Assembly (NCBI GenBank): GCA_945913025.1
Contig: CAMECJ010000003.1
Span: 167,746 to 200,745, forward strand
Direction of reading: 5' to 3'
DNA: 33,000 bases
Origin: an uncultured Elusimicrobia bacterium
Lineage (GTDB): Bacteria; Elusimicrobiota; Elusimicrobia; Elusimicrobiales; Elusimicrobiaceae
The notes beneath the pieces are model-generated. The model was given only the letters and a program-made list of their open reading frames with translations, was not told where the DNA came from and did not search any database. Shown piece by piece: positions 679-32,703 of the stretch. The first letter of the stretch is position 1. Each line of letters begins with the position of its first letter. A program made the translations under genes and the position numbers.

Positions 679-781
679 CTGTTTTTGAAATCGCGGCGGA
701 TTTACCGCTGCATAAGCAGAGTTCAAAAACAGTCGTTTGAGGCGCAAGAGAAACGGCCTAATGACCCGTTTCTTTTGCGCC
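679..781. repeat. Two nested or adjacent inverted repeats upstream of the pilin remnant
   Basis: An 11-bp perfect inverted repeat (679-689 with 722-732, arm CTGTTTTTGAA) encloses a smaller GCGG/CCGC hairpin. It is followed by a 16-bp hairpin (741-756 with 766-781) with one G-T wobble and a 9-nt loop. Neither has a long T-tract on the plus side, so they are not obvious terminators. They sit just before, and overlap, the leader shared with the pilin at 32221. The stretch 551-904 contains no convincing gene. Confidence 0.7.
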
Positions 782-904
782 GAACGTTTATCGCCTTTTG
801 GCGGTCAACTACGGCTGTTTATTCGGGCGTTACTCTGCTTAGCCCGGGTTTGCGGCCGTTTTTTATGCGCAAATTCGGGCTCGGGCAACTATAGGAGCAA
901 AAAA
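765..904 (+). promoter_or_regulatory. Structured 5' leader of the pilin remnant (copy A)
   Basis: About 140 bp upstream of the remnant's ATG aligns with the leader of the intact pilin at 32221. Shared elements, in order, are: TTTTG(C/T)GCC; a small CGCC/GGCG hairpin (792-803); an outer stem ACGGCTG (811-817) pairing with CGGCCGT (853-859); an inner stem ATTCGGGC (821-828) pairing with GCCCGGGT (842-849) through G-U pairs; a T-run; and AGGAGC just before the start. The two copies differ by a one-base indel, so a conserved peptide is unlikely. I infer a transcribed structured leader or a mobile leader cassette. Confidence 0.6.
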
Positions 905-2641: not shown

Positions 2642-2851
2642 AACCGCCGGTGCGAATTTCCGGCGGTTCGTTTTCGTATAGGAGACTGCGCTCTGCGCAC
2701 CTTTGGCTCTAAAGCGGCAGAGTTACTGCTAAAGTTAAGCACGGAATACGGACAAATAATCTTCCGAAATCTGACCGAACAAAGAAACAGGCAAATGACT
2801 GGGAACACTATTAAATAAGGCCACTACCTTACCTTTCCAAATGAAAGGTTC
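2642..2851. repeat. 210-bp perfect direct repeat, copy 2
   Basis: Identical to 1683-1892. It contains the C-terminal codons of the gene at 2735-3442, its stop, and a hairpin (2642-2668). Here the minus-strand hairpin is followed by CTCGTTAACG rather than a T-run, so it is a poorer terminator than copy 1 and read-through into the downstream paralogue is possible. Confidence 0.97.
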
Positions 2852-3442
2852 TCCTTTTTCAAGCTGGGGACGGTGCCCCATTAACCGCGCTTTGCGCGTC
2901 ACAACCCCTCTGCCAGCTAAAAAGGATTGCAATTCCGTTCCGAAATCCGAACCGTATACGTCCTGAAGGGTGTTTCCATAAGGAACATAGGTTACCTCCA
3001 ATCCGCCGAGCCCTTTTGTTAAAGAAGAGGATACACGTACATAAGCGATATCGTCGTTTACGGATACAGCCCCCGCCTTACCGCTGCCCGTCTGGCCGTT
3101 AGACAAAGAAACCCGTACCTGTACCAGTTCAAAATCTTTATATTTAGCGCATTCCGAGAGCGTTGCCACGCGCAAATCCTTCAATAAAACGCCGACACAT
3201 TTTTTTTGTTTCATTTCCGTTTTAACGATTACATTGCGAAACCCGGGGCGGCGCCGGTGAACATAATCGGACAGCCAAAAATCTTTTTTATATTCAAACG
3301 TTAAATCAACGCGCGCAGATCGCGCGAACTGTGCTGCACCTACTTCCCGCTCCACTTGGTTATAGAGAGTTGTTTCCGCAAAAGAGGGAACGGCAAAAAC
3401 AAACAACAGATACAGTACCACAACTACATAACTTTTTTTCAT
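2735..3442 (-). CDS. Secreted trypsin-fold protein, probable pseudoprotease (copy 2)
   Basis: A 235-residue exported protein; the signal peptide MKKSYVVVVLYLLFVFAVPSFA has a likely cleavage after SFA. It aligns along its length with the neighbour at 1776: VEREV near residue 30, CVGVLL, a DIAYVRV block, TLQDVYG, then an identical C-terminus from GEPFIWKG onward. At the S1 catalytic positions the His is replaced by Glu (VATLSECA) and the Ser by Lys (EKGEP); the Asp of DDIA is kept. Both copies thus lack the same two triad residues with different substitutions, arguing for stable non-catalytic function rather than recent decay. It has its own promoter (3475-3503) and an AAGGAG ribosome site. Confidence 0.7.
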   Translation of the reverse strand: MKKSYVVVVLYLLFVFAVPSFAETTLYNQVEREVGAAQFARSARVDLTFEYKKDFWLSDYVHRRRPGFRNVIVKTEMKQKKCVGVLLKDLRVATLSECAKYKDFELVQVRVSLSNGQTGSGKAGAVSVNDDIAYVRVSSSLTKGLGGLEVTYVPYGNTLQDVYGSDFGTELQSFLAGRGVVTRKARLMGHRPQLEKGEPFIWKGKVVALFNSVPSHLPVSLFGQISEDYLSVFRA

Positions 3443-5000: not shown

Positions 5001-5456
5001 ATGAAAAAAGGTTTTACGCTTATAGAACTTTTAGTGGTAGTATTGATTATCGGCATTTTGTCGGCCGTCGCGCTGCCGCAATACCAAAAAGCGGTTGCAA
5101 AAAGCCGATTTACACAGCTGGTAACGGCAGGGAAAAGTTTAAAAGACGCCATGGAAGTTTATTACATGGCCAACGGCAACTACCCCAGCTTCTGGCACCA
5201 ATTGGATATTGAATACCCGGGATGCGAAGAAAGCCCCAGCAGCCGTTATATGCTCTGGTGCGAAAAATTTGCCGTAGACATGTTTGCCGGTGAAAGTGCA
5301 AATCTAATTTTAATCGACATGCACGGCGTCGCCGATAAAACCAACCACAACCAAGGCCAAACCCGCTATATTATTTGGCTGGACCATTCTGACTATCCCG
5401 GTAAAACGACGTGCAACAGCACCGTGCCCGGACTGTGCAAAAGTATGGGATATTGA
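5001..5456 (+). CDS. Type IV pilin-like protein (orphan)
   Basis: A 151-residue prepilin. The leader MKKG is cut before Phe by a prepilin peptidase; the mature N-terminus FTLIELLVVVLIIGILSAV has Glu(+5) and the hydrophobic alpha-1 stretch that anchors it in the membrane and packs in the pilus core. Next come ALPQYQKAVAKSR and a variable globular domain with four cysteines, the last pair (CNSTVPGLC) near the C-terminus like a disulfide D-region. No pilus assembly genes are nearby. The gene has its own promoter and terminator, so it is a single-gene unit. Unlike the other two pilin loci here, it lacks the structured leader. Whether it is a major pilin, a minor pilin or a type II secretion pseudopilin cannot be told. 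Confidence 0.9.
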   Translation: MKKGFTLIELLVVVLIIGILSAVALPQYQKAVAKSRFTQLVTAGKSLKDAMEVYYMANGNYPSFWHQLDIEYPGCEESPSSRYMLWCEKFAVDMFAGESANLILIDMHGVADKTNHNQGQTRYIIWLDHSDYPGKTTCNSTVPGLCKSMGY

Positions 5457-32049: not shown

Positions 32050-32087
32050 AGAACCGTAGTACACAATTTTATCTGTTTAGGGAAGTC

Positions 32088-32220
32088 ATGAGCCCTTTGT
32101 TTTGTGCCAAGTGTTTGTCGCCCTTGCGGCGGCAAACCACGGCTGTTTATTGGGCTTCGTATAGCTGGGCCCAGATAGACGGCCGTTTTTGTTTGGTTCC
32201 AAAGACAACAAGGAGCCTTT
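32088..32220 (+). promoter_or_regulatory. Structured 5' leader of the pilin (copy B)
   Basis: It aligns with copy A (765-904). It has a small hairpin CGCC/GGCG (32119-32131), an outer stem ACGGCTGT (32139-32146) with ACGGCCGT (32179-32186), and an inner stem TTGGGC (32150-32155) with GCCCAG (32169-32174), where copy A pairs with different bases. The 13-nt block ACGGCTGTTTATT is identical in both. It ends in AGGAG five nt before the ATG. A 60-residue frame runs through it but is not conserved in copy A because of an indel. Confidence 0.6.
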
Positions 32221-32703
32221 ATGAACAACAGCTATACATCAAATATCCGCCAAGGGTTTACGTTGATTGAACTTTTGGTAGTGGTACTCATCATCGGGAT
32301 TTTGGCCTCTGTAGCGTTGCCGCAATACCAAAAAGCGGTGGAAAAAAGCAGAATGGCGGAAGCGGTTATTTTGGTAAAAGCCATTGCTGAGGCCAACCAA
32401 GTCTACTATATGGCTAACGGACAATACGCCGGAATTGGAGATTTAGAGTTATTAGATATTAATATTCCGGGTGCTATTTTTGAGGACGCCGGCACTAGAA
32501 CCCAGACAAAACATTTTATTTATTCACCCCTGGGAACCCTGGGCACGGAACTAGCCGTAGCACAAAGACAGCCGTTCAAACAATCGTATTATATTTGGAT
32601 ATCCCGCGAAGAACCGAATAAAATTAAATGCACGACTTATCCTCAAGTTTCTTCTATCCAAAAACAGCTTTGCGACCAATTAAACCAAAACGGCACGTTG
32701 TAA
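32221..32703 (+). CDS. Type IV pilin-like protein (orphan, with structured leader)
   Basis: A 160-residue prepilin with a 12-residue leader (MNNSYTSNIRQG) ending in Gly(-1), then FTLIELLVVVLIIGILASVA with Glu(+5). ALPQYQKAVEKSRMAEAVI continues helix alpha-1. The globular part is unlike the pilin at 5001, but both have 'YYMANGxY' near residue 60 and a C-terminal Cys pair (CTTYPQ...LC). AGGAG lies 5 nt before the ATG at 32221. It stands alone between tuf and the lipoproteins, with no assembly genes nearby, so it is likely a minor or variable pilin using machinery encoded elsewhere. Confidence 0.9.
   Translation: MNNSYTSNIRQGFTLIELLVVVLIIGILASVALPQYQKAVEKSRMAEAVILVKAIAEANQVYYMANGQYAGIGDLELLDINIPGAIFEDAGTRTQTKHFIYSPLGTLGTELAVAQRQPFKQSYYIWISREEPNKIKCTTYPQVSSIQKQLCDQLNQNGTL

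Follow-up and report, generated by a model that had tools for sequence, protein, structure and literature searches.

A multi-copy leader RNA family upstream of pilin and other surface genes in Elusimicrobiota: a probable transcription attenuator with copy-specific pairing keys

Two pilin loci lying 31 kb apart in the window, the whole 33,000-nucleotide stretch of uncultured Elusimicrobia DNA analyzed here, are preceded by leaders that resemble each other, which raises the question of what this shared element is and what it does for the genes behind it. An earlier note on this DNA had described a conserved structured leader at positions 765–904, ahead of the pilins that start at 905 and 32221. 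When the window's own genome was searched at the DNA level, the relationship was recovered, positions 740–1000 aligning with C3:199833–199935, which is the second copy, at 74% over 103 nt (E = 1.8e-8). The pairings that had been described were found in their places, namely a CGCC/GGCG hairpin (792–803), an outer stem of ACGGCTG (811–817) with CGGCCGT (853–859), and an inner stem of CGGGC (824–828) with GCCCG (842–846), for which the second copy has TGGGC (32151–32155) and GCCCA (32169–32173); the third pilin, at 5001, indeed lacks a copy. The observation is confirmed, but the element extends further than had been described: its start lies at approximately 679, so that 765–904 covers its 3′ half only, and the 5′ half with its putative antiterminator strand had been missed. 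It had also gone unnoticed that the outer and inner stems, with TTTTTT behind them, have the form of an intrinsic terminator.

Searches of the genome with either leader brought up more copies, and the full extent was seen from the 330 bases ahead of 43 pilin starts of the same genome. The leader is a structured RNA of about 185–215 nt, located at 679–864 in the window, and its elements follow one another in the order promoter, hp0, P1a, hp1, hp2, V, P1b, junction, hp3, hp4, terminator (T5′, loop L, T3′ and U-run), Shine-Dalgarno sequence and start codon. Within 130 nt upstream, 64 of 160 copies carry a TATAAT, where 26 would be expected; these boxes cluster at about −80 to −60 and −30 to −20. 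In the first window copy, on the + strand like the second copy and the pilin sequences behind both, the hairpin hp0 (GGGCC..GGCCC, 649–664) forms the leader start as read from the sequence and lies outside the covariance model; a comparable hairpin occupies the same place in most copies of the genome. In the fold computed for this copy, strand P1a (CTGTTTTTGA, 679–688), which resembles the terminator 5′ arm in sequence type, pairs with P1b (TCAAAAACAG, 723–732), a strand common to helix P1 and the predicted antiterminator helix. The copy-specific key V (TAAGCAGAGT, 713–722) is the reverse complement of loop L (832–841), with 10 of 10 pairs Watson-Crick. Hairpin hp3 (741–781; helices 4 and 5 of the covariance test) carries the loop CCTAATGAC (757–765), in which the palindrome of CCTAATTAC has decayed, and hp4 (785–809; helix 6), which contains the CGCC/GGCG hairpin, shows two-sided change in all ten of its pairs. 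The computed terminator (811–864; helices 8 and 9; ACGGCTG..CGGCCGTTTTTT) consists of T5′ (811–828), a loop (829–841) containing L, T3′ (842–859) and the U-run (859–864).

Both window loci are impaired. The first retains the full switch, but its hp3 loop has decayed (TAATGA), only a single hairpin remains inside P1, and the gene behind it, although pilin-derived as had been proposed, is a remnant of 27 codons followed by a stop (905–988); it reads MKQGFTLVELLVVVLIIGILAAARELL and matches N_methyl over 24 positions (C3:168647–168718). The second copy (32080–32190) has suffered a 5′ deletion in which P1, hp1, hp2, V and most of the hp3 5′ arm were lost; it keeps the 3′ part of hp3, hp4 (32113–32137) and the terminator (32139–32190), has no V:L pairing, and scores 59 bits with covariance model R1. 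Its leader is halved and its pilin intact (32221–32703, 160 aa). Both leaders fold far better than shuffled sequences (z = −6.4 and −3.2). Elsewhere in the window, two adjoining paralogous ORFs on the − strand (1776–2489 and 2735–3442) have an identical 117-nt 3′ end and 93 nt of identical 3′ flank and differ in the rest, pointing to a recent duplication or gene conversion.

Model R1, built from nine copies with 207 positions and 64 pairs, found 18 copies in the genome at E < 1e-12. Thirteen of these stand before pilins, a position for which a simple placement model gives each copy a chance of about 1.1% (binomial p ~5e-22). It is thus borne out that the leader recurs before a subset of pilins, and no more than a subset: the genome has approximately 115 N_methyl pilin starts. 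So many type IV pilin-like starts in 1.76 Mb are in themselves an extreme expansion. Two genera of Elusimicrobiaceae and a distant family of Elusimicrobiota yielded well over 150 further copies. The leader is present in 32 of 61 genomes searched, including all but five of the 37 genomes of the window's own genus, and the covariance-model search found it in none of 24 genomes of the sister family f2. A phylum-wide draw gave 57 of 199 genomes, belonging to genera g1 and g12 of family f1 and to four genera of the distant family f10. Copy numbers of 25–39 are reached in some of the genomes searched. Every named locus matching the model bears the label Elusimicrobiota or that of one of its subgroups, with the exception of L167, labelled only "uncultured bacterium". 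Matches to a conserved 16-mer in other phyla were dismissed as chance, those loci giving no covariance-model match.

Across 85 distinct rows of the wider alignment, 94.6% of cells were paired, compared with 38–48% when the partner strand was slid, and in helix 1 (P1) the proportion was 99.6%. Compensatory change was massive, with two-sided changes in 55 of the 64 pairs, and 0 of 500 shuffles reached any observed value. The alignment had been fitted to the model, which favours the model; because the effect is this large, there is nevertheless little doubt that the RNA fold is under selection. The original view of a nucleic-acid rather than a protein element is supported.

The covarying helices contain a conflict that suggests what the leader may do. 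P1a (CTGTTTTTGG) and T5′ (ACGGCTGTTannTTTGG) are nearly one strand type, so P1b can pair with either. V together with the strand behind it pairs with the terminator 5′ arm, giving a computed antiterminator of nearly equal energy (mean −85.6 kcal/mol, against −86.1 kcal/mol for the terminator fold); the window copy favours the terminator fold by a computed 8 kcal/mol, which, like its decayed hp3 loop and broken gene, speaks against the attenuator reading given below. When V:L was forced, it extended by 7–15 P1b/junction:T5′ pairs in 74 of 77 copies. Sequence variation follows this shared use: a CTAT in T5′ is accompanied nearly always by ATAG in P1b (p = 7e-8, not corrected for relatedness), and in f10 most P1a strands start ATG, leaving the final G of P1b partnerless in P1, its C being kept in T5′. 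A second class of unrelated sequence, represented by three leaders (L257–L259), has the same strand sharing and a private V:L, with P1a GATTATTTGTTGA and T5′ GATTATTTGTTAA or similar. The element ends in TTTT in 154 of 162 copies, and a Shine-Dalgarno sequence and start codon follow in 153 of 162, at a median distance of 45 nt. The sequence thus contains both the terminator hairpin with U-run before a gene and, in computed folds and covariation, the comparable antiterminator by which attenuator leaders are recognized, and there is good evidence that the two predicted folds are mutually exclusive.

Taken together, these features suggest that the leaders are probably a new family of cis-acting transcription-attenuator RNAs controlling surface and contingency genes. 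The nascent leader would take one of two mutually exclusive folds. In the OFF fold, P1a:P1b and T5′:T3′ would form and RNA polymerase would stop on reaching the U-run, with about 45 nt still to go to the start codon; in the ON fold, V, P1b and the junction would form one long helix with L and T5′, the terminator would be blocked and the gene read. Acting in cis, V:L would serve as a toehold peculiar to its copy, confining the rearrangement to the leader concerned, and bistability may be the purpose of the design. Three other modes of action were rejected. Translation coupling through pairing of P1a with a CCAAAAACAG repeat near the Shine-Dalgarno sequence scored 7.9, against 7.4 in shuffles; general Shine-Dalgarno sequestration was seen in only 34 of 141 copies; and a leader peptide starting inside hp3, where some copies have ATG, is not conserved, most TAATTA-class copies having no start codon and C17 stopping after three codons.

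The same two folds could instead be chosen by a metabolite, with hp1 and hp2 inside P1 forming an aptamer. P1 with two inner hairpins does stand at the usual place of an aptamer, on a terminator/antiterminator platform, but neither hp1 nor hp2 is constrained in sequence or size, the window copy manages without hp2, and no conserved unpaired core that would suggest a ligand was seen. The target genes are also very mixed, and there is no match in Rfam, as the earlier note had anticipated in knowing of no named riboswitch or leader with this layout: Rfam 15 (4227 families, including T-box and c-di-GMP) gave no gathering-level match in the window, and five other loci gave no cis-regulatory family near its gathering score. 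We therefore regard a metabolite riboswitch as very unlikely.

A feature that sets these leaders apart is the key itself. V sits just 5′ of P1b and is perfectly Watson-Crick complementary to the terminator loop L, with at least 8 contiguous pairs (8–14 nt, typically 9–12) in 147 of the 159 copies scored. Among these copies there are 136 distinct V sequences, and against the loop of another copy V matches mostly 4–6 nt. G-U pairs make up 2% of V:L and 5–20% of other helices, the longest-run search biasing the V:L figure downwards. No V was common to two copies of one genome in the sample; the paralogues L050 and L051, with 90% identical bodies, have unrelated V:L pairs, each perfectly matched. 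Cassette-like spreading, which had been suggested as an alternative to common control, finds no support here, since paralogues always differ in their key. Among cross-genome pairs of >90% identity, V was common in 7 of 11. V:L evolves faster than the RNA body, a pattern that simple compensatory drift does not explain and that counts against the attenuator reading. Mutual orthogonality of the leaders may be the reason for the diversity of keys.

The V:L signature would look alike for a tertiary pseudoknot or for pairing in trans, and V:L might accordingly coexist with P1 and the terminator, either as a pseudoknot or in a domain-swapped homodimer of two molecules; the element would then be a stable self-recognizing small RNA with its own terminator, the gene being reached by read-through. 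Strict Watson-Crick keys that are never common within a genome, along with a palindromic loop, suit such homotypic recognition, and P1, the terminator and V:L occupy separate stretches of sequence. The terminator loop, however, consists of little besides L, so that a full 10-bp helix there would be sterically strained, and the sharing of strands by P1a and T5′, repeated in class 2, would be left unexplained; we consider this arrangement unlikely. Strict pairing, and the way V and L change in step between near-identical paralogues (L050/L051, for example), could also reflect a device at the DNA level, in which V+P1b and T5′+L are long inverted repeats around hp3 and hp4, and recombination or strand-switching rewrites both and may also flip the segment. 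The chimeric copy L186, whose V and L differ in origin, fits this idea, but all other helices have G-U intermediates of the RNA type, the order and orientation of hp3 and hp4 are constant in the copies read, and U-run, Shine-Dalgarno sequence and start codon keep a fixed order, making a DNA device highly improbable. In L186 itself (261–467), V agrees with L090 and L with L051, and the two do not pair; natural recombination or a chimeric assembly could account for this copy.

A second self-complementary feature lies in the apical loop of hp3. This loop is a palindrome that has switched sequence about ten times with palindromy kept (TAATTA, TCATGA, TTATAA, TTCGAA, TTGCAA, TAGCTA, CTCGAG, CTGCAG, GATC, AGCT and GGCC). 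Among 33 distinct hp3 loops, 29 have a palindrome of at least 4 nt and 20 one of at least 6 nt, compared with 13.2 and 2.2 in shuffled loops; the hp4 loops, as a control, gave 6 and 0 of 75. Self-complementarity preserved through repeated change resembles the signature of a homodimeric kissing loop, by which two leaders of one loop class could kiss, the dimers probably biasing the choice of fold within the attenuator. Class 2 has no palindromic hp3-type loop by eye, and the switch would therefore be independent of that loop. A further tentative proposal, to which we give a limited chance of being correct, is RNA self-recognition: dozens of paralogous leaders per cell would dimerize through their palindromic loops, and private V:L keys, diversifying faster than the rest, would limit the action to transcripts of the leader's own gene. 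If so, RNA alone, with no protein dedicated to the task, would give each surface gene a feedback or memory of its own transcription.

The genes behind the leader show that it is not specific to pilins. A pilin N-terminus lies within 900 nt in 85 of 162 copies only, so that the prediction that all hits would precede pilins failed, and with contexts this mixed the element was rejected as a pilin-specific marker. The other downstream genes encode OMP_b-brl barrels, a BamE-like lipoprotein, a PMP-repeat protein, a tail-collar-like protein, GT2, GT8 and GT9 glycosyltransferases, RgpF, pyruvyl transferases, a CapD-like epimerase, a sulfatase-domain protein, DNA methylases (three N6_N4 and one EcoRI-type) and a PLD-helicase restriction-like protein. 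Pili, outer-membrane proteins, glycan enzymes and DNA methylases are typical contingency classes, usually phase-varying. Most leaderless pilins of the genome have upstream a promoter-like motif, TTGACCCG-T(10-13)-GATA, whose T-tract spacer varies in length between loci; the motif as defined occurs in 25 of 33 upstream regions without a leader and in 0 of 10 with one, and about 47 such sites exist in the genome (e.g., C3:149359–149382:+ and C6:8165–8188:+). The spacer suggests slipped-strand phase variation. The presence of two independent, stochastic-looking controls in one gene family supports the contingency reading, and the leaders may confer stochastic or locus-specific switching.

Two further structures were observed at pilin and leader loci. 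L057-like pilin loci of the genome (C3:82785, C6:61515, C2:26303 and C15:20657) have inserted repeats in the prepilin leader (either ..HPELVSGS.. or inverted repeats of the GGAATGACG type), which look as though palindromic elements had entered in frame ahead of the pilin core. L055 and L058 share a further conserved hairpin block (CAGCACA..CCTCCGCCAAGAGT) just behind the terminator and ahead of the gene; it corresponds to no Rfam family.

The working principle proposed here, attenuation, is already known, and several known systems invite comparison. In gut bacteria, the NusG paralogues Bacteroides UpxY and LoaP/RfaH carry out locus-specific antitermination of surface-polysaccharide genes, and locus-specific antitermination of surface genes is what we propose for the Elusimicrobiota leader. 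A search of 51 genomes gave at most one NusG match per genome, hence no extra paralogue, and csrA in none, so that a NusG paralogue or CsrA was rejected as partner; unlike in UpxY/LoaP/RfaH systems, specificity would have to lie in the RNA. T-box leaders and transcriptional riboswitch platforms are likewise 5′ leaders with exclusive terminator and antiterminator helices that have one strand in common, whereas the Elusimicrobiota leader has no known aptamer or T-box sequence, no Rfam match, a hypervariable copy-specific toehold and many paralogues per genome. A literature search found no paper on leader RNAs of Elusimicrobia or describing this RNA, and to our knowledge no leader family of many copies that joins hypervariable locus-private keys to a palindromic loop has been described. 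It would be a large new regulatory RNA family, so far seen only in host-associated-looking Elusimicrobiota lineages, and a natural set of >100 sequence-programmable transcription switches on one common chassis, with which the general question of how paralogous RNAs sharing a cell escape cross-talk could be tested.

Among lineage-specific RNA families, the nearest one found is that of the Bartonella Brt RNAs, which are lineage-restricted, about 200 nt long and present in several copies per genome; they carry a putative terminator at the 3′ end and lie immediately before genes. The nine Brt RNAs all precede HTH regulator genes, and both leader and trans roles have been proposed (PMC5387305). Compared by description rather than by sequence, a private V:L key and a palindromic loop do not appear in the passages of the Brt account that were compared (PMC5387305). 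The retroviral dimer signal offers the closest likeness for the loop: HIV-1 DIS has a 6-nt palindrome in a 9-nt apical loop of the 5′ leader, coupled to alternative leader folds (PMC7357161), and in the Elusimicrobiota leader, too, a 9-nt apical loop with a 6-nt palindrome lies in a 5′ leader with alternative predicted folds, its self-complementarity having been kept through sequence change. Unlike HIV-1 DIS, the Elusimicrobiota leader is bacterial, multi-copy and placed before cellular genes, it uses many different palindromes, and its dimer is a predicted one.
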